DNA of 64,000 nucleotides from Methylothermaceae bacterium (GTDB taxonomy: Bacteria; Pseudomonadota; Gammaproteobacteria; Methylococcales; Methylothermaceae): the NCBI GenBank assembly GCA_026981855.1, contig JALSIB010000006.1:1-64000 (forward strand), written 5' to 3'. Positions 3,985 to 14,689 of the stretch are shown in pieces (positions within the stretch are counted from its first letter, which is position 1; every line of letters starts with the position of its first letter). The notes beneath the pieces are model-generated. The model was not told the origin of the DNA, made no database searches, and saw only the letters and a list, made by a program, of their open reading frames with translations. The position numbers and the translations under genes are program-made.

Positions 3985-4021
3985 GGCGCAAAAGACAAAT
4001 ATTTCACCGGGGGAGGATGTC

Positions 4022-5608
4022 ATGTCATACCGCTTCATCGCATCATTGCTCCTTGCGCTCTCGCTGGCCGTTCCAGCCGCCTCGGCACAGCCTGGCGATG
4101 ATTCGGCCCGCCTGATCGGGCAGTACCGCCAGGCTCATCCGGGCAAAGGCAAATACGCCGACCACTGGCAGCCCATCCCCATCCAGCGTTACTGGAACCC
4201 CAAAGATTTCTACCAGCCGCCGGCCACCGTCACGGCCGAAGTCACGCGCGATCAGTGCGTCGGCTGCCACCAGGACATCACGCCGGGATTCGTCCATGCG
4301 TGGAAGAACAGCACCCACGCGCATCTCGACCGCATCCGCACGCTCCCCGGGGGGGACGTGCGCGCCTACAAGAAAGCGATTCTGGCCCGGGTCGAGGAAA
4401 CGCTGGAAAAGCAGGGCCTGCTCGAACGGGGGAAACGGTTGCGGGAAGTGGGCTGCATCGACTGTCATGGGGGGGTGGGCAGACAAAAGATCCGTCACGA
4501 CCGGGATCTGCGGATGCCCGACCGGGCGGTGTGCGGAACCTGCCACCTGGAGCAGTTCGCCCAGGCCGAATCGGAAAAAGCGCAGACCTGGCCCCAGAAC
4601 CAATGGCCCCAGGGGCACCCCTCCCACGCGGTGGACTGGAAAGCCAACGTGAAAACCGCCATCTGGGCCGGCATGGCCGAGCGTGAGATCGCCCAGGGCT
4701 GCGACATGTGCCACTATCAGCAGAACAAGTGCGACGGCTGCCACACCCGGCACAGTTTCTCCGCCGCCGAGGCCCGCCAACCGGAAGCCTGCGCCACCTG
4801 TCACAACGGCGTCGATCACAACGAATACGAAAATTACCTGCTGTCGAAACACGGCACCGTCTACCAGACTCACAAGGCCAAATGGAATTTCGAGGCGCCC
4901 TTGAAGGACGCTTTCACCAAAGGGGGGTATACGGCGCCCACCTGCCAGCTCTGCCACTTCGAGTATCAAGGTGAATTCAGCCACAACCTGGTGCGCAAGG
5001 TTCGCTGGGGCTTCAATCCCACCCCCGCCATCGCGGACAATCTCGATCATCCCTGGTTCAAGGAGCGTCTGGACGCCTGGGTCGGAACCTGCAGCCGATG
5101 CCACTCGCCCCGCTTTGCCCGCACCTGGATGGAAACCGCCGACAAAGGCATCCTCCAGGGGCTGGCGCTGGAACAGGAAGCCAGGAAAGTCGTTCAGGAC
5201 CTCTACGACGATGGATTGCTGGTGGGTCAGAAAACCAACCGTCCGGCGCCCCCCTTGCCGGAAAAGGACGCTGCCGGCGGATTCTTCCAGTTGTTCTGGG
5301 CCCGGGGCAACAACCCCTCGCGGGTGGAAAGAGTCTATGCCGACATGTGGGAGCACGACCTGATCAAACTCTACAAAGGGCTGGTCCACGCCAACCCCGG
5401 TGGTTTCACCTATAGCGAAGGCTGGTCCCCCCTGCTGCGCGACTATACCGAGATCATGGACGAAAACACCCGCCTGCGGGGCGAGGCGAAGCTGCGCCAC
5501 GCAGGGGTGCCGGGGATACCCGGCCTGGCGTCCCTGGACCCCCGCCTGCCCCTCGGCGCCGTCTTGATCCTTGGCGGCCTGGCAGTCATCGGGCGGCGAA
5601 AGCCCTGA
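4022..5608 (+). CDS. haoA: Octaheme hydroxylamine oxidoreductase
   Basis: 528 aa with a signal peptide (cleavage likely after ASA, residue 22). It has eight CxxCH heme sites: CVGCH, CIDCH, CGTCH, CDMCH, CDGCH, CATCH, CQLCH and CSRCH. HAO oxidises hydroxylamine (to NO or nitrite) in the periplasm; in methanotrophs it removes hydroxylamine formed when methane monooxygenase oxidises ammonia. The tyrosine-containing stretch GFTYSEGWSP (Tyr at about 464) lies where the P460 cross-linking tyrosine of the ammonia-oxidiser enzyme is expected, which is an inference from position. A C-terminal hydrophobic helix ending GRRKP could anchor it to the membrane. GGGGGAGG sits 5 bases before the ATG. haoB overlaps the stop by one base. 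Confidence 0.92.
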   Translation: MSYRFIASLLLALSLAVPAASAQPGDDSARLIGQYRQAHPGKGKYADHWQPIPIQRYWNPKDFYQPPATVTAEVTRDQCVGCHQDITPGFVHAWKNSTHAHLDRIRTLPGGDVRAYKKAILARVEETLEKQGLLERGKRLREVGCIDCHGGVGRQKIRHDRDLRMPDRAVCGTCHLEQFAQAESEKAQTWPQNQWPQGHPSHAVDWKANVKTAIWAGMAEREIAQGCDMCHYQQNKCDGCHTRHSFSAAEARQPEACATCHNGVDHNEYENYLLSKHGTVYQTHKAKWNFEAPLKDAFTKGGYTAPTCQLCHFEYQGEFSHNLVRKVRWGFNPTPAIADNLDHPWFKERLDAWVGTCSRCHSPRFARTWMETADKGILQGLALEQEARKVVQDLYDDGLLVGQKTNRPAPPLPEKDAAGGFFQLFWARGNNPSRVERVYADMWEHDLIKLYKGLVHANPGGFTYSEGWSPLLRDYTEIMDENTRLRGEAKLRHAGVPGIPGLASLDPRLPLGAVLILGGLAVIGRRKP

Positions 5609-6540
5609 TGCCGCGCCGCCTCCTGACGGGCGGCCTGCTGCTTCTTGCCGGGGCCGCCCTGCTTCTTTGGGCCCTTGTGCCGGAGCGGGAGACGTGGACC
5701 ATCGAAAAAACGCCGCTTCCCATCCCGCCCGGGCTGGTCAGTCATTACCCGCCAGAGGGGTTCGAACGATGGGAGGTGGAACAGAAAAAGACCGGCAGGC
5801 GGTTGACCTTCCATGTCATCCATTACCGGGACACAGGCGGGAGGAGGCGCCAGGCCATCCTGCCACAACCCGGGTCCGCCGCATGGCGGGCATGGATGGA
5901 GCTGGCTGAAAGCCTGCGGCAACGGAAAGAGCGCGATGCCCTGATTCTCACTTGGTGGGACAACGCCCAGCGGATCGATTTTCTCACCGGCATCCCCGTT
6001 TGGACGAGACGTCCCCCCGCCGAGGCCTTTACCGAAAATCAGCGCGATCTGTGGCGCCAACTGAGCGGGGGGTTCGGCGACAGCCAAGGCCACCTGAAAC
6101 GATTGGCCGGCTGGCTGAGCCGGACAGATGAGCGGTTGCCCAAGGCGATCGAAGAAGCGCTTTCCGGCAGATCCATCCATTTGCTCATTTCCAGCGACGA
6201 CCTTTCCCATGTGAATGAATTCGAGCGCCTGACGGGGCGCAAACTCCCTTTGGATGTCCGCATCTTCCCTTCAACCGGAAACCTGCATGGCCAAATCTCC
6301 GCAGTCCAGGCATGGGCGCAAGAAACCGGCGGCATCTACCTGCCCCAGGCCATTCCCGGCGGAATCGCCGCCTGGCGGCTCAAGCGGACGGATCCTGCGC
6401 CGCTTCTGCTGCAACTTTTGCCATTCACCTATCCCGAGCCGCGACCGATGACGAGACTAAAATTGGTTTATCACTCTCCCGGCGGTAAACTGAATCTATA
6501 TCAGCCCTTCAGAGGGGAAGGTAGCGATCACTCACAATGA
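5608..6540 (+). CDS. haoB: HaoB, hydroxylamine-oxidation accessory protein
   Basis: 310 aa. An N-terminal hydrophobic segment (about residues 5-24) suggests a membrane-anchored or exported protein; the rest is soluble with no heme motif. The start ATG shares one base with the haoA TGA, so the two are translationally coupled. HaoB is a protein of unknown biochemical role encoded immediately after haoA in methanotrophs; identification here rests mainly on that position, size and N-terminal anchor. No recognised catalytic motif is visible. No clear terminator follows; a new promoter region for the next cassette begins about 15 bases after the stop. Confidence 0.75.
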   Translation: MPRRLLTGGLLLLAGAALLLWALVPERETWTIEKTPLPIPPGLVSHYPPEGFERWEVEQKKTGRRLTFHVIHYRDTGGRRRQAILPQPGSAAWRAWMELAESLRQRKERDALILTWWDNAQRIDFLTGIPVWTRRPPAEAFTENQRDLWRQLSGGFGDSQGHLKRLAGWLSRTDERLPKAIEEALSGRSIHLLISSDDLSHVNEFERLTGRKLPLDVRIFPSTGNLHGQISAVQAWAQETGGIYLPQAIPGGIAAWRLKRTDPAPLLLQLLPFTYPEPRPMTRLKLVYHSPGGKLNLYQPFRGEGSDHSQ

Positions 6541-6697: not shown

Positions 6698-7282
6698 ATG
6701 AGCGACAAAGAAACCCGAAACGAACAGGAAAACACACACAGCCACGTTTCCCGCAACCGCCGTACACTGATCAAATCAGCCGCCGCAGCGGCTCCCGTCG
6801 TCCTGACCCTGCGGAGCGGGGCCGCCGCCGCATTGGCAAGCGCGGACACGTGCATCGTGAGGGATCAACAAATAGCGCAAAACACAGGCCCGGGAGTCAA
6901 TGGCATTCGGGTCGTCAACAACCAGGGGGATACCTGGGTTCGAACGTTGACCCGTTGCAGAACACTGCAAGGCACCAACAGTACCGGCAACACTTTCCAG
7001 TTCAGGGTTTACAAAGACCCTACGGGAAGCACCACACCGGCCAATTGGTACAAGGCAAACAATGAAAACAAAATCTACCGTAATTCCTCCCCGGGAAAAA
7101 TGATCAATATAACCAACAACAAGGAATTCGATATCATAAACACCTACGATTGCAACATTCTGGTGCTTTTTGACCAGAATGGTAACGTGATCAGCTTTGG
7201 AAGGTTCAATACGAGCAATGGAAGCGACAACGATGTGGGCCTTCCCATCACCAACTCGTGCTGGGCCTCCATCAATCCTTAA
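6698..7282 (+). CDS. Small exported protein, first gene of the HPr-rel-A cassette
   Basis: 194 aa, no known domain. A hydrophilic N-terminus is followed by RNRRTLIKS (twin arginine at 21-22), an Ala/Val/Leu-rich segment and the stretch APVVLTLRSGAAAA ending at ASADTC (Cys52). The mature part is Asn/Thr/Ser-rich with four cysteines (52, about 89, 152 and 188) and looks extracellular. The N-terminus resembles a Tat-like signal, possibly with Cys52 as a modified or lipid-linked residue, but there is no standard lipobox. The ATG at 6698 follows GGAG at good distance; the open frame reaches back to 6638 without better support. It may be the substrate of the three downstream genes, which is inference from gene order. 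Confidence 0.7.
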   Translation: MSDKETRNEQENTHSHVSRNRRTLIKSAAAAAPVVLTLRSGAAAALASADTCIVRDQQIAQNTGPGVNGIRVVNNQGDTWVRTLTRCRTLQGTNSTGNTFQFRVYKDPTGSTTPANWYKANNENKIYRNSSPGKMINITNNKEFDIINTYDCNILVLFDQNGNVISFGRFNTSNGSDNDVGLPITNSCWASINP

Positions 7283-7290
7283 GATTAAAG

Positions 7291-7566
7291 ATGAATGCCC
7301 AGCGGCGCTGGCGAACCAATAAAAGTCACCTTTTATGGGAAGTCTGGCCCCGGGAAGCTGTGATCTATAACTCCCTTTCGGGGGAAACGCATTATCTGAA
7401 TCATTTGGCGATGCGGCTCCTGCAAAAAATGGAACAGGGTCCGATAAGCGAGGAAGCACTATCAGATTTCATTGGTAAAAAAGAAACCATTGATGATTCA
7501 GACGCCCAGCTGAAACAGTTTCTTCAGCAATTCGACCAGTTGGGCCTGATCGAGCCCGCAGAGTGA
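7291..7566 (+). CDS. PqqD-like protein of the HPr-rel-A system
   Basis: 91 aa. The PqqD-like pattern of a short beta-rich start, LxxxxVIYNSLSGETHYLN, then a helical half (LAMRLLQKMEQGPIS and a C-terminal FLQQFDQLGLI) is visible. PqqD-fold proteins bind leader peptides and present them to modifying enzymes. Placement directly before an HprK-related kinase and a nucleotidyltransferase matches the HPr-rel-A neighbourhood. The start ATG lies 8 bases after the previous stop, and the stop overlaps the GTG start of the kinase gene, so the genes are co-translated. No radical SAM gene is nearby. Confidence 0.75.
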   Translation: MNAQRRWRTNKSHLLWEVWPREAVIYNSLSGETHYLNHLAMRLLQKMEQGPISEEALSDFIGKKETIDDSDAQLKQFLQQFDQLGLIEPAE

Positions 7567-8471
7567 AGATCGCCGAGCACAGCCGCCCGGAGCTGACGAA
7601 GCGCCTCGCCTCTCCAGACGGGTTGCGGCTGGAGGTGGGGCCTTTCAGTGTCCGTATTCGAAGCGAAACCGGGGTGTTTCCTCCCTTCCTTCGTTCCCTC
7701 TATGCCGACTTCCCCTTGTCTTCCCCGGAGACCGTCGCCGATTTCAGAATCCGGCTCCGCCGCCCGAAAACCTTCCGCCGGTTTCTTCAGCCCCAGATCA
7801 TCTTCGAAAGCGACGGCCAAAAACTGTTCCAGCCTTTCCCCCTTTCCCACGCCCCGCCGCTTTTCGAATGGGGCCTCAACTGGTGCATCGGCACCCGGGC
7901 CCACCAGTATCTCATCCTCCATGCCGCGGTTCTGGAACGAGGGGGACGGGCCGTCATCATGCCCGCCTTGCCGGGCTCGGGCAAGAGCACCCTGTGCGCG
8001 GCGCTGATGCTGCATGGCTGGCGGCTGCTGTCGGACGAGTTCGGCCTGGTTCGGGCCGAAGGCCTGCTCGACCCGATTCCCCGTCCCATCCCGCTGAAGA
8101 ACCAATCGATCGGGGTCATCCGCCGATACGCTCCGCAAGCGACCCTGGGTCCCGAATTTCCCAAGACCCGCAAAGGGACGGTGGCGCATCTGAAACCCAC
8201 GCCGGCCAGCGTGGCACGCATGCGGGAAACGGCCGAACCGGCCTGGATCGTCTTCCCCCGCTATCAGGAAGACAGCCCGGCGCGGCTGTCGCCGCTGGTT
8301 CCCTCCTACGCCCTGCTCAAGCTGGCCACCAACGCTTTCAATTACGAGGTACTGGGGGCGGAAGGATTCCGCCGTGCCGGCCGCTTGATCCGCCGGTGCG
8401 AACTCTACAGCTTCCAGTACGGCCATCTGGAGGATGCCATGAATGTTTTCGACTCCCTTCCAGGCCGATGA
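7563..8471 (+). CDS. HprK-related kinase A
   Basis: 302 aa, GTG start overlapping the previous TGA (GTGA). A P-loop PALPGSGKSTLCA (about residues 134-146) is followed by LLSDEFGLVR, resembling the acidic Walker B-like region of HPr kinase/phosphorylase. True HprK phosphorylates HPr on a serine; this subfamily lacks the N-terminal HprK domain and has no known substrate. The phosphate carrier HPr is not encoded nearby. The gene is coupled to the nucleotidyltransferase gene by an ATGA overlap. Kinase activity is likely from the intact P-loop; the target, perhaps the small exported protein or a sugar, is unknown. Confidence 0.8.
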   Translation: MKIAEHSRPELTKRLASPDGLRLEVGPFSVRIRSETGVFPPFLRSLYADFPLSSPETVADFRIRLRRPKTFRRFLQPQIIFESDGQKLFQPFPLSHAPPLFEWGLNWCIGTRAHQYLILHAAVLERGGRAVIMPALPGSGKSTLCAALMLHGWRLLSDEFGLVRAEGLLDPIPRPIPLKNQSIGVIRRYAPQATLGPEFPKTRKGTVAHLKPTPASVARMRETAEPAWIVFPRYQEDSPARLSPLVPSYALLKLATNAFNYEVLGAEGFRRAGRLIRRCELYSFQYGHLEDAMNVFDSLPGR

Positions 8472-9526
8472 ACGACCGGCAAATTCTCCTTCGGGCGCTT
8501 CGCGCTCCCTCGATCTGCCGCGACCTTTCCAACCGGGAATGGGAAAGCCTCCTCGCCCTCAGCGACCGGGCCAGGTTGACCGCCACCCTGGCATGGAGGC
8601 TCGAACGCCACGGTCTGGAAGACGCAATCCCTCCCGGCGCGCGGCGGCAATTGCAGGCCAGCCGGGTCTTCGCCGACTTCCGCAACCGCCAGATCCTGTG
8701 GGAGATGAACCGGGTGCAGCGGGTGCTGAGAAAGGCGGATTTCGATGTCATCGCCCTGAAAGGCGGCGCCTATCTGCTGCTCGACCTGCCGCTTGCGAGG
8801 GGACGCCTGCCGGCGGATCTCGACATCCTGGTCGAACGGAAAAATCTGGCCGCCATGGAGGATCTGCTGCTTGCCGAAGGCTGGCAAACCACCAAACTGG
8901 ACGACTACGACCAGCGTTACTACCGGGAATGGATGCACGAAATCCCCCCCTTGCGCCACCCGGAACGGAAGGTGGAAGTGGACGTCCATCACGCCCTGCT
9001 CCCGATGACCGCCAGAATCCAGGCCAGTCCGGAGCTGCTGTGGCCGTCGGCCCGCGCGGTCGAGGGCAGCCGGTTCAAGGTGCTGGCGCCGGAAGACCTG
9101 GTTCTCCACGCCGTTGTCCATTTGTTTTACGACTCCGATTTCGACAACCGGCTGCGCGATCTCCTGGACATCGACGAGCTGCTGCGCTTCCACGCCCGGC
9201 GGGAAGAAGGCTTCTGGCGACGCCTGTCGCGGCGGGCCGCCGATCACGGCCTGACCCGTCCCCTGGCCTACGCCCTGCATTGTTGCCACCGCCTTCTGGA
9301 CACGCCGGTCCCGGCTGACGCCCGCCTGAGCGGAACCATCCCCCCCTGGCTGCTGCGATGGATGACGCTCCTGATCCACCAGGCCCTGCCGCCGCCAACG
9401 ACGCATCGCTTCGCGCCCCTCGACGCCACTGCCCGCTGGCTGCTCTACGTCCGCTCCCACTACCTGCGCATGCCGCTGCGGCTACTGCTCCCCCATCTGG
9501 CCTACAAGGCCTGGAAACGCAATTGA
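8468..9526 (+). CDS. Nucleotidyltransferase-fold protein (NTP_transf_5 type)
   Basis: 352 aa. The family hallmark is visible as VIALKGGAYLLL, then LPADLDILVE (metal-binding D-x-D near residue 117) and VEVDVHHAL (third acidic site). The C-terminal half is helical and rich in His, Arg and Leu. Such proteins are found in surface-polysaccharide and HPr-rel-A loci, but the transferred nucleotide and acceptor are not established. The ATG overlaps the kinase stop (ATGA). It is the last gene of the cassette; no terminator is obvious before the convergent ATPase gene 30 bases away. Confidence 0.78.
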   Translation: MNDRQILLRALRAPSICRDLSNREWESLLALSDRARLTATLAWRLERHGLEDAIPPGARRQLQASRVFADFRNRQILWEMNRVQRVLRKADFDVIALKGGAYLLLDLPLARGRLPADLDILVERKNLAAMEDLLLAEGWQTTKLDDYDQRYYREWMHEIPPLRHPERKVEVDVHHALLPMTARIQASPELLWPSARAVEGSRFKVLAPEDLVLHAVVHLFYDSDFDNRLRDLLDIDELLRFHARREEGFWRRLSRRAADHGLTRPLAYALHCCHRLLDTPVPADARLSGTIPPWLLRWMTLLIHQALPPPTTHRFAPLDATARWLLYVRSHYLRMPLRLLLPHLAYKAWKRN

Positions 9527-11183: not shown

Positions 11184-12224
11184 TCACTCTTTTTCGGCCA
11201 GGGAGATGCCCCGCACGTCGCCCAACAACACGGCTATCCAGCGAGTGCCCGGATTGTCTTCGAGAAACATCTTGAAAATCACGGTGAGGGGAACCGACAA
11301 AAACATCCCCACCGGACCCAGTATCCAACCCCAGAAAATCAGGGAAAGAAACACCACCAGGGTGGACAGACCCAGCCCGATACCGACGATACGGGGGTCC
11401 AGAATGCCGCCGATGAGGGTATTGATGACCAGGTAGCCCATGGCGGTATAGAAGGCCACCCCCGGCCCGAATTGTACCAGGGCCAGCAAAATCGCCGGGG
11501 CCGCGGCGATGAACGAACCGATGTTGGGAATGAAGTTCAACACGAAAGCCAGCGCTCCCCAGAGGATGGGGTAGTCCACCTCGAGAAACGTCAGCCACAG
11601 GGTGACGGTAGCGCCGGTCAAAAGGCTGATGAGCGTTTTCAGCCGCAGATAGCGCCTCAGATTGGCGAAGAACAATTCGAACCGGAGGGCCATCTTGGAA
11701 TCCCCGAAAACCAGCTGCAGTTTGGTGGGGAGAATGAAGGCCTCCAGAAACATGAAGGTCACGTAGAAAAGAATCAGGGCGGTGTTGGCGAAGGCGCCGG
11801 TCAAGGCGGTCACCATGGTTCCGGCCCACTGCATCAGACGGCCGGGATTGAGAAATTCGTTGAATCGTTCACGCGACAAGTCGAATCCGCGCTCGGACAA
11901 CCAGGCGAACAATCCGGCCATGTTGGCCTGCAGACGGTTCTGATAATTCGGCAGATTACCGATGAAACTGTCGATGGACTTGCCGACGAACAACCCCACT
12001 CCGGTCATCAGCACCAACAAACCGATGACCACCAACAGAATCGCCAGCCAACCGGGTATCTTGTGGCGATACAACCATTCGACGAGCGGCCAGCAGATAA
12101 TGGCGATGAAAACCGAAAGCAGCATCGGCACCAGAATGGTGGCCGCGGCCTGGACCCCGGCTATGACGACGACCAGAGCTGCCGCCGTGATCAACCAATG
12201 ATGTCTTCTCACCTCGGCCGTCAC
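11184..12224 (-). CDS. AI-2E family transporter (PerM-like permease)
   Basis: 346 aa with about 8 hydrophobic helices and the family motif near LNFIPNIGSFIAAAPAILLAL and GGILDPRIVGIGLGLS. The family includes exporters and Na+/H+ antiporters; the AI-2 link of the name is not general. The GTG start overlaps the thioesterase stop (GTGA), which places it as the last gene of the polyene operon; a longer frame extends to 12305 but would overlap the thioesterase by 85 bases. Its membership in the operon raises the possibility that it helps export or place the product, which is speculation. Confidence 0.85.
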   Translation of the reverse strand: MTAEVRRHHWLITAAALVVVIAGVQAAATILVPMLLSVFIAIICWPLVEWLYRHKIPGWLAILLVVIGLLVLMTGVGLFVGKSIDSFIGNLPNYQNRLQANMAGLFAWLSERGFDLSRERFNEFLNPGRLMQWAGTMVTALTGAFANTALILFYVTFMFLEAFILPTKLQLVFGDSKMALRFELFFANLRRYLRLKTLISLLTGATVTLWLTFLEVDYPILWGALAFVLNFIPNIGSFIAAAPAILLALVQFGPGVAFYTAMGYLVINTLIGGILDPRIVGIGLGLSTLVVFLSLIFWGWILGPVGMFLSVPLTVIFKMFLEDNPGTRWIAVLLGDVRGISLAEKE

Positions 12225-12685
12225 GGTGGATGAACCGGACCGGTATCGGAGCCCGGCTGGAATTTCTCTATCTTTTTCCTGAAGACCTCGGGCGATCCGA
12301 AACACATTTCTCCCGTTTCCACCGAAACCGCCACCTGAATGGTGGTTCCCCGGGCAAGGCGTCTTCCCCTGTCCGTATCCGTGATTTCATAACCGATCTT
12401 CATCCGATACTCGTATTCCTTCAAAACCGCCCGGACGTTCAGCCTCTCCCCGAAACGGGCCGGGGCCATGTACTTGAGCCGCAGCTCCACCACCGGCCAC
12501 ACGTATCCCGTCTCCTTCATCGTCAGATAATCGTAGCCGATCCTGTCCAGCAAAGCACAACGGACCTGCTCGAAATACTTGACGTAATGCCCATGCCAGA
12601 CGATCCCCAGCATGTCCACATCGTAAAAGGGCACTTCCACGACCATCTCGGCCGAAGGCAAGGTTTCCGATGGCGGCTCCCTCAC
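12221..12685 (-). CDS. Acyl-CoA/ACP thioesterase (hotdog fold), aryl-polyene ApeK-like
   Basis: 154 aa. A 4-hydroxybenzoyl-CoA-thioesterase-like hotdog: FYDVDMLGIVWHGHYVKYFE contains the usual Asp (DxxGIVxH) and His. It would release or edit acyl chains. The chosen GTG at 12685 overlaps the stop of the upstream acyltransferase (GTGA), in keeping with every other junction of this operon; ATG codons further upstream would overlap that gene deeply. Part of the polyene operon. Confidence 0.85.
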   Translation of the reverse strand: MREPPSETLPSAEMVVEVPFYDVDMLGIVWHGHYVKYFEQVRCALLDRIGYDYLTMKETGYVWPVVELRLKYMAPARFGERLNVRAVLKEYEYRMKIGYEITDTDRGRRLARGTTIQVAVSVETGEMCFGSPEVFRKKIEKFQPGSDTGPVHPP

Positions 12686-13611
12686 GACCGCCCCCAGAAA
12701 GGATAGAAATTGAACCATTCCAGCGGAGCTTCCAGACAATGGCGTTGCAACCTGCCGGCGAATCCCACCGCGTGCCGCCGGATGTTTTCCAGGCGCTCGC
12801 GGGGATTTCGCGGCAGCCGGATATGCTCCGCGAACCGTTGGAAACGAATCCGGTAACGGCCGTCTTCCCCCCGGAAACAAAAAAGGGTGTAAACGGGACA
12901 TTGAAGCAGGTGGGCCAAGAGGTAAGGCCCCTGGGGAAAATCCGCTTCCCTGCCGAGAAAGGGCACCTTCACCACCCTGCCATCGCTGCTGACCGGAATC
13001 CGGTCCCCCACCAGCACCACGAATTCACCCGCCTGGATTTTTTCATGCAGGCGGATGGAAACCGCCGGCGTCATTTCCGTCACCTGAATCAAGGACATCT
13101 GCGGCGCGTGTTCCACCCCCTGGAGCAACCGGTTGAACTTTTCGGCATGCTTGGTGTGCACCAGAATATTGAGCCTGAGCCTGCGTCTTTCATCCGCCAG
13201 CGCCCTGCATACTTCCAGGTTGCCCAGATGGGCGGTAATGATGAGCGCGCCGCGTCCGCTGCGGAGAAGATCGAGAAACACTTCGCGGTCGGGAAACACC
13301 ACCGACTTCATGTCGAAACGGCCGAGCCATACCACGATTTTGTCCAGCAGACATTCGGCGTAACGGAGAAAATGGCGGTAACCGGTCCTCCAGCCCGGTT
13401 CGATGCCCAGTTCGGGGGAGAACGCCGCAAGCCGCCTTAAGTATTCCATCGAGGCTTCTCTGGCACGCCGGTTGACGATGAAATAATACCCCACCACCGG
13501 ATACAGAAACAGGCGGAAAAAAGGTCTTCCCAGAAGCAGATAGACCCCCAGAAGAAACCGCATCCCCCACAGGATGCCGCGCTCCTCCATCGTGGCCCAA
13601 TGGGTGCTCAT
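12682..13611 (-). CDS. LpxL/HtrB-like lysophospholipid-type acyltransferase
   Basis: 309 aa. An N-terminal hydrophobic anchor is followed by ALIITAHLGNLEVCR, the HxxxxE-like catalytic motif of lauroyl/myristoyl acyltransferases, and then LVGDRIPVSSDGR and FPQGPYLLAHLL. In aryl-polyene clusters such an enzyme, often fused to a glycosyltransferase (ApeJ), is thought to attach the polyene to its lipid or sugar anchor. Here the two functions are separate genes joined by an ATGA overlap. Inner membrane, cytoplasmic face. Confidence 0.85.
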   Translation of the reverse strand: MSTHWATMEERGILWGMRFLLGVYLLLGRPFFRLFLYPVVGYYFIVNRRAREASMEYLRRLAAFSPELGIEPGWRTGYRHFLRYAECLLDKIVVWLGRFDMKSVVFPDREVFLDLLRSGRGALIITAHLGNLEVCRALADERRRLRLNILVHTKHAEKFNRLLQGVEHAPQMSLIQVTEMTPAVSIRLHEKIQAGEFVVLVGDRIPVSSDGRVVKVPFLGREADFPQGPYLLAHLLQCPVYTLFCFRGEDGRYRIRFQRFAEHIRLPRNPRERLENIRRHAVGFAGRLQRHCLEAPLEWFNFYPFWGRS

Positions 13612-14336
13612 CGCTTACCGCCCAACAATTGCCGCCGCAACATGGTGAAGAACAAACGGGCATGCATCCGGCTGATGCGCCAATTGTCCTCCAACGGGCG
13701 GAAATGGGAAACCCCTTTCGGATCATAGCGTACCCGCGTCGGCAGCCAGACCATCGGCGCCCCCCGCCAGTGCAACCGCACCAGCACCTCGATGTCGAAG
13801 TCCATCCGTTCCCCCGTGGGTTCGTTTTCAAGCAGGGGAATCAGCCGCTCCAGGGGATAGAGCCGGAAACCGCACATGGCATCGGGTATGGCGAAGGACA
13901 AGGTGTTGATCCAGACCCACAGGTGGGTGAGATAGCGGCTGTAATAACGCCCTTTGGGAATAGAGCGGTCGAATACCGGCCTGCCGCAGATCACGGCATC
14001 GGGGTGCCGCCGCGCCGCCTGGAGAAAACGGGGCACGTCGCCAAGATCGTGCTGGCCGTCGGCATCGATCTGCAGAGCGTGACTGAAACCCAGCGCCCGG
14101 GCCTTGAACAGACCGGTCTTGACCGCCGCTCCCTTGCCGCGATTTTCCCGATGGCGGGTGACCAGCACCCCCGCATCCCCCGCCGCCAGGGCCGCCAGTC
14201 TGGCCGCATGATCCGGGGAACTGCCATCATCCACCAGCAGACAGAAAAGGCCGGATTCTCTCAGGCGGCCGACGATCCGGGGCAGTTTTTCGCTGTGGTC
14301 GTACACCGGGATCAGAACGCAGGGAGAAACGCTCAA
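13608..14336 (-). CDS. Glycosyltransferase family 2
   Basis: 242 aa GT-A fold protein. VLIPVYDHSEKLP is the nucleotide-sugar start, LLVDDGSSPD the first acidic loop, and QIDADGQHD the metal-binding DxD. It resembles dolichyl-phosphate-mannose-synthase-like enzymes and the GT part of ApeJ. The start is taken as TTG at 14336 because it overlaps the dehydratase stop (TTGA), as at the other junctions; an ATG at 14378 would overlap by 46 bases and add an unrelated leader. The sugar donor and acceptor are unknown. Confidence 0.8.
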   Translation of the reverse strand: MSVSPCVLIPVYDHSEKLPRIVGRLRESGLFCLLVDDGSSPDHAARLAALAAGDAGVLVTRHRENRGKGAAVKTGLFKARALGFSHALQIDADGQHDLGDVPRFLQAARRHPDAVICGRPVFDRSIPKGRYYSRYLTHLWVWINTLSFAIPDAMCGFRLYPLERLIPLLENEPTGERMDFDIEVLVRLHWRGAPMVWLPTRVRYDPKGVSHFRPLEDNWRISRMHARLFFTMLRRQLLGGKR

Positions 14337-14689
14337 GCCGGCCTCCAGTAGATTCTGCCGGAGCTGTACTCGGCGCAAGGGGTGGCATACCGGAATGCCA
14401 GACGGTCCCGCTCCGGATCATAATCCAATTGCAGGCTCACCTCCCTGCCGGGCAGCAGGAGCTGTTTGAACTTGATCGCCTCCATGTGAGCGAACGCACG
14501 ATCCAGCCCGTATTCGGCGAGAAAAAAACCGGCCGCCCAATGGACCTGCACCACCCCGGGCAAGATCGGGCAGCCGGGGAAATGACCCTCGAACCACACC
14601 AGATCCCCCGGCAACCGCAGCGCCAGACGCATTCTGTCACCGCTTCTTTCCCGCCCCCGCACCTCCGGCCACCGGGGCGCGTCAGGCAT
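14333..14689 (-). CDS. 3-hydroxyacyl-ACP dehydratase, ApeI-like
   Basis: 118 aa hotdog-fold dehydratase of the FabA/FabZ type. WFEGHFPGCPILPGVVQVH carries the catalytic His (EGHFPxxPxxPGV). In aryl-polyene synthesis ApeI pairs with ApeP to form the active dehydratase that creates each trans double bond; an ApeP-like gene is present at 19168-19641. The ATG at 14689 overlaps the upstream membrane-protein gene by 8 bases. In enterobacterial clusters an acyl-ACP ligase gene lies near this position; here there is none. Confidence 0.82.
   Translation of the reverse strand: MPDAPRWPEVRGRERSGDRMRLALRLPGDLVWFEGHFPGCPILPGVVQVHWAAGFFLAEYGLDRAFAHMEAIKFKQLLLPGREVSLQLDYDPERDRLAFRYATPCAEYSSGRIYWRPA

Follow-up and report, generated by a model that had tools for sequence, protein, structure and literature searches.

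The small twin-arginine (RR) protein encoded at the head of a four-gene cassette in a Methylothermaceae genome is likely to be the dedicated substrate of the enzymes encoded behind it, which are a PqqD-like protein (RRE), an HprK-related kinase and a nucleotidyltransferase. The cassette lies in the 64,000-nucleotide stretch of contig JALSIB010000006.1 that was analysed here and that we call the window; all positions are those of the window. The four genes are linked across many genomes, the leader of the RR protein is conserved and specific to genomes that have the kinase, a C-terminal motif recurs in proteins of the window's type, the active sites of the enzymes are intact and the type of substrate agrees with the clade of the kinase. 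We consider it probable, from the comparative analysis below, that recognition of the Tat-type leader by the PqqD-like protein is followed by phosphorylation of a serine by the kinase, capping of that serine by the transferase and export of the product through Tat.

The cassette

The features of the cassette are collected in Table 1. A sequence-only reading of this DNA had described four tightly linked genes, three of them overlapping, and had singled out a distinctive run in the exported protein. The open reading frames bear out the arrangement, with a gap of 8 nt between the RR gene and the pqqD-like gene and overlaps of 4 nt at each of the pqqD-like/kinase and kinase/nucleotidyltransferase junctions. 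The run, APVVLTLRSG, is non-random and belongs to a leader that is kept across more than 100 loci. The kinase scores over the cut-off of TIGR04352 and the product of the adjoining pqqD-like gene over that of TIGR04353, which makes this an HPr-rel-A locus. Neither the RR protein of the window nor its relatives score over the cut-off of any Pfam or NCBIfam model, and a promoter/terminator scan gave no signal above chance.

Table 1. Features of the cassette in the window.
Feature	Position	Strand	Details
RR-signal protein (proposed substrate, type I)	6698..7282	+	194 aa, SRNRRTLIKSAAAAAPVVLTLRSGAAAALASADTC
Conserved leader NRRTLIKSAAAAAPVVLTLRSGAAAALASADTC, Tat-type signal plus leader motif	6755..6853	+	profile A2
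C-terminal motif SCWASI, with candidate modified serine	7256..7273	+	residues 187-192
PqqD-like protein (RRE), proposed leader binder	7291..7566	+	TIGR04353, 51.8 bits (cut-off 35)
HprK-related kinase A, GTG start	7563..8471	+	TIGR04352, 391.7 bits (cut-off 200)
Walker A PGSGKST	7971..7991	+	kinase residues 137-143; active site with H120, S157-D158-E159
NTP_transf_5 nucleotidyltransferase	8468..9526	+	352 aa; PF14907, 199 bits (cut-off 31)

Conservation and specificity of the leader

The RR protein carries the features of a Tat substrate, namely a twin arginine, a hydrophobic stretch and an AxA-like end, and tatC is present in the window's genome (238 bits). Relatives were sought in a sample of 107 HPr-rel-A loci, comprising 27 from 274 genomes of the same class and 80 from named genomes, the latter drawn from at least 588 relatives. 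An iterated leader profile, built from the RR open reading frames of the loci themselves, has the consensus RRRLxKxx..P[VI][LM]TLxS[GR] and matches 98 of the 107 loci, in all cases on the same strand as the kinase; the matches score at least 18.6 bits, against 11.4 bits for the next-best background in the search of these loci. The sequence-only reading had named the absence of such relatives from other HPr-rel-A loci as what would count against it, and they are thus found at most of them. The usual place of the leader gene is directly upstream of the pqqD-like gene; four loci have it downstream of the transferase. Of the nine loci that the profile does not match, contig ends interrupt three. 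Five others carry, at the usual position, an RR protein whose leader has diverged, and only L060 lacks an RR protein. The twin arginines are kept in 114/118 and 118/118 leaders.

Because the locus profile had been built from such reading frames, specificity was assessed in whole genomes, searched at E <1e-5 with an alignment of the leaders of the window and the named loci. Within the class, the leader occurs in 22/27 kinase-positive genomes as opposed to 1/247 kinase-negative ones (Fisher p ~1e-26, a significance inflated by shared ancestry, since the test counts genomes as independent). In the sole kinase-negative genome with a leader (G184), and in one with a near-threshold match (G101), a divergent HprK homologue adjoins the leader gene. 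A further sample of 59 kinase-positive genomes of the window's order gave a leader at E <1e-3 in 57, with only two kinase-negative leader matches, both at contig ends; for one of the 57 (G325) the genome match lies elsewhere, and the leader of the cassette itself is seen by the locus profile alone (18.8 bits). Genomes mostly have one leader gene, within the cassette, and one (G421) has two. Profile A2 matches the window's leader at E 2.6e-10 and nothing else in its genome. Two genomes (G328 and G375; loci L250 and L252) encode type I RR proteins (see below) with SCWAS tails apart from the cassette.

Tat substrates generally give no match to the profile, so that Tat targeting alone does not account for the leader. 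This bears on the simplest alternative, that the RR protein is exported by Tat like many others and has no tie to the enzymes of its operon. Twin-arginine signals are indeed common, but the profile usually matches one protein per genome, and almost only in kinase-positive genomes, despite the many Tat substrates present; the linkage, moreover, extends to many families and outside the class, Magnetococcales included. Contradicted as it is by the co-occurrence data, we regard this alternative as very improbable.

Two types of substrate

Beyond the leader, the RR proteins are hypervariable in their mature parts, of which two types can be told apart. Type I, to which the window's protein belongs, combines a TLxSG leader with the C-terminal motif S-C-[WL]-[AT]-S-[LFI]. 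This motif emerged from an unsupervised search with a score of 512, as compared with 297-315 in shuffled sets. In the last 22 residues, C[WLYMAN]xS is found in 24/35 type I tails (shuffled mean 1.3, maximum 7) and in 0/268 internal windows, while xS[hydrophobic] is kept in 35/35 tails, including the 11 that do not have C[WLYMAN]xS. SCWAS could be a structural element (a disulfide) rather than an acceptor, yet the serine persists in those 11 tails, where the cysteine is lost. One type I protein of 74 aa (L048) consists of little more than leader and tail, and ends in SACISCNASLI. The model of the window's RR protein (pLDDT 70) has a confident beta core at residues 79-170 and an uncertain tail (pLDDT 42-54); the predicted disorder of the tail is compatible with an accessible site, without being proof of one. 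A PDB fold search with this model returned no match at E <0.001, a result that says nothing on the novelty of the fold.

In type II proteins the leader is TLASRP-like, and the domain further on shows SPGYWK- and HxVAAxLNA-like motifs. Of these proteins, 59/84 have SGxxSGN-like serines in the first 45 residues past the leader, as against 4/37 of type I; the C-terminal C[W..]xS motif is found in 0/84 of type II.

The kinase tree separates the two types, with 3 changes as labelled versus 30 when the labels are shuffled. The labels were set by regular expression, and two of the three changes are L083, which is mislabelled (its tail is SAASIV), and L063, whose substrate is truncated; these are also the only two 'type II' rows in the single group of 37 that makes up type I. 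Type I hosts include Methylococcales, Magnetococcales and Accumulibacter-like bacteria, and the split is thus not simply taxonomic. Several type-specific kinase positions (160, 177, 199-203) adjoin invariant active-site residues in sequence. The proposal of the sequence-only reading that the small RR protein is a substrate therefore gains support both from the specificity of its leader for kinase-positive genomes and from the way in which substrate type tracks the kinase clade.

In a Bathymodiolus methanotrophic endosymbiont (L269/L063), the RR gene is cut to 76 aa past a normal leader and the other genes of the cassette are intact. With the rest of the cassette intact and only this gene truncated, the substrate may be decaying.

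The three enzymes

The kinase residues H120, G138, G140, K141, S142, T143, D158 and E159 are invariant (119/119), as is the putative active site of the transferase, which comprises K, G and three D (118/118). In its predicted structure (pLDDT 96) the kinase adopts the fold of the HprK/PEPCK superfamily, with a P-loop active site. Over its full length the nearest fold is that of PEP carboxykinase (PEPCK; Z 16 over 286 residues, 11% identity), which is also found by Foldseek at E 2.6e-6, with HprK/P structures lower in the list (0.003-0.04). When the kinase was compared with NCBIfam at E up to 1, TIGR04352, ScmC, HprK_rel_B and one nucleoside kinase model were found and no HprK/P family model. 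PDB sequence searches with the PqqD-like protein and with the nucleotidyltransferase gave no match.

Leader and PqqD-like protein distances correlate at 0.42, which falls to 0.15 when kinase distance is controlled (partial correlations 0.15-0.23); the correlation is modest, and leader binding is not attributable to the PqqD-like protein specifically on this basis. No export signal was recognised in any of the three enzymes. An alternative role for the PqqD-like protein would be that of a Tat proofreading chaperone, similar to the TorD/DmsD type, which retains the RR protein until another part of it has been modified, with the kinase and the nucleotidyltransferase targeting another residue or regulating release. 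The conserved Tat-type leader and the single leader gene of most genomes fit such a role, and so do the three signal-less enzymes, which imply action before export. The conserved, acceptor-like motifs and the agreement between kinase clade and substrate type nevertheless favour the mature part as the target of the kinase, and we consider a chaperone role unlikely.

Divergent cassettes and distribution

Hundreds of sequenced bacterial genomes encode HPr-rel-A kinases, and in more than 100 the leader is conserved beside the enzymes. One HPr-rel-A cassette, with an RR protein of 79 aa, is in a metagenome-assembled genome labelled Phycisphaera (Planctomycetota; L101), a placement that may reflect transfer or a binning error. 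At five loci (L256, L257, L258, L292 and L298), an HprK-like protein below the TIGR04352 cut-off is mostly accompanied by a PqqD-like gene and at some loci by a transferase; their short RR proteins have leaders of the form SRRxFIKKAAYxAPVVLTL, and all except L292 have GS shortly past the likely cleavage site. In these divergent proteobacterial cassettes the AAYxAPVVLTL segment places the RRE motif YxxPx[VL] inside a Tat-type signal. The window's leader reads AAAAPVV; it has neither Tyr nor Trp where the classical [YW]xxP motif requires one, and it does not match YxxPx[VL], the leader motif of linear polyphosphorylated peptides (LPPs). The leader tyrosine is confined to the divergent cassettes. 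These Tat-type leaders with an RRE motif strengthen the bridge to published RRE systems.

At three further loci (L029, L030 and L031), a trio of PqqD-like, HprK-like (~100 bits to TIGR04352) and transferase-like genes was found with no recognised RR leader gene. The trio adjoins a tRNA methyltransferase-like gene at L029 and L031.

Genomic context

Immediately around the window's cassette lie HaoA-like, HaoB-like and HerA-like genes, an ORF at 11184-12305, and thioesterase, acyltransferase and GT2 genes. Directly upstream, at 3998-6540, are the genes for a HaoA-like multihaem cytochrome and the HaoB-like protein (TIGR04392, 119 bits, below the cut-off of 200). The Hao genes were considered as part of the system and rejected, as a HaoB relative adjoins the cassette in the window only and at none of the other loci. 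On the minus strand, at 12221-14378, the thioesterase, LpxL-like acyltransferase and GT2 genes stand in a row, which we take to resemble part of an aryl-polyene-type cluster.

It might also be supposed that the kinase and the nucleotidyltransferase act on a glycan or a sugar precursor, as for an exopolysaccharide (EPS), with the RR protein as exported carrier or acceptor. A linked glycan as target had been conceived in the sequence-only reading, and support for it is indirect. Exosortase is over its cut-off in 25/27 kinase-positive and 53/247 kinase-negative genomes, and exosortase-A EPS-like genes are found near some loci. The over-representation might point to a role connected with the cell surface or with polysaccharides, although lineage could yield the same pattern by shared ancestry. 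A chemical precedent is PsmN of pseudomycoidin, which adds hexoses to phosphoserine (PMC9266682). Against this, no EPS gene was recognised amongst the direct neighbours of the cassette, and in the window's genome the exosortase is on a separate contig. We think a glycan target quite improbable.

Proposed pathway

In the scheme that we prefer, the four genes would form one protein-modification cassette. The RR N-terminal signal would play a double role, as Tat signal and as leader bound in the cytoplasm by the PqqD-like (RRE) protein, which would hand the chain to the HprK-related kinase for phosphorylation of a serine. In the window and in type I generally, the acceptor would most likely be a serine within the C-terminal SCWASI; in type II it would be a serine within the SGxxSGN stretch past the leader. 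NTP_transf_5 might then put a nucleotidyl or sugar-phosphate group on the phosphoserine, which is the weakest step of the scheme. The modified protein would leave through Tat, and signal peptidase would remove the leader. The middle of the protein could vary freely if the enzymes need only leader and acceptor site.

More broadly, the exported proteins of these cassettes may form a RiPP-like class of phospho- or glyco-proteins that is widespread in Proteobacteria. The Tat signal would in this class be the RRE-bound leader, serine phosphorylation and capping would precede Tat export, and two substrate classes would go with two kinase clades; this wider proposal we put forward tentatively, as perhaps correct. 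A candidate substrate, acceptor serines and leader can now be named for HPr-rel-A kinases. The literature searched, mostly open-access, gives no substrate for them and makes no mention of HPr-rel-A, TIGR04352, TIGR04353 or an HprK-related kinase. The predicted doubling of a Tat signal as a RiPP leader would connect the modification of proteins under leader guidance with quality control in the Tat pathway.

Comparison with known systems

The window's kinase and PqqD-like protein are members of HPr-rel-A (NCBIfam TIGR04352/TIGR04353), and the names of these models state no substrate. The kinase shares the H...GxGKS/T...D[DE] active site and the superfamily fold with HPr kinase/phosphorylase (1JB1, 1KKL, 3TQF) and PEP carboxykinase, although sequence similarity is weak (E 0.015) and the full-length fold is nearer to PEPCK.

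The closest parallels are found in LPPs and paeninodin-type lasso peptides, whose leader-bearing precursors are the targets of an RRE, an HprK-like kinase and a nucleotidyltransferase. The residue phosphorylated is Ser3 of the core for LppK and BsfK, and a C-terminal serine for PadeK, ThcoK and PsmK; phosphorylation is greatly accelerated by the RRE BsfB1, and PsmN adds hexose to phosphoserine (PMC13381572, PMC10368454, PMC9266682). The lasso kinases share with the kinases here an active-site pattern of H, G, K, S and an acidic pair (PMC10368454). Against the proposed scheme, no activity of the LPP nucleotidyltransferase was seen in a heterologous host (PMC13381572).

With LPPs (lppA-K-B-S-D-N, Bacillota; PMC13381572), the cassettes have in common the RRE, HprK-like kinase and NTP transferase, the conserved N-terminal leader ahead of a remainder that varies greatly, as well as precursors of 35-200 aa, one to three per cluster, and a polysaccharide-locus context. 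LPPs, however, have their own signal-peptidase-like protease, MsbA-like transporter and YxxPxVL leader, whereas the window has a Tat-type leader and a proposed type I acceptor that is C-terminal; neither an SpI-type peptidase nor an MsbA-like transporter was recognised amongst the profiled direct neighbours of its cassette. With lasso tailoring (PadeK, ThcoK, PsmK, PsmN, BsfK; PMC9266682, PMC10368454), the shared elements are an HprK-like kinase that acts on a conserved serine and its RRE and nucleotidyltransferase partners, and in paeninodin the phosphorylated serine is C-terminal, as proposed for type I. The substrates here, in contrast, are exported proteins of ~70-300 aa, most of them beyond the length of lasso precursors, and a lasso cyclase (C) and a B2 leader peptidase are absent from the cassette genes and the profiled direct neighbours. 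A precursor with conserved leader and variable remainder is encoded beside an RRE gene, as in RRE-dependent RiPP-like systems. Since the other defining genes of LPPs and lasso peptides were not found beside the window's cassette, we place it outside both and regard it as a variant of the RRE-kinase-transferase systems, LPP-like with a Tat signal as its leader.
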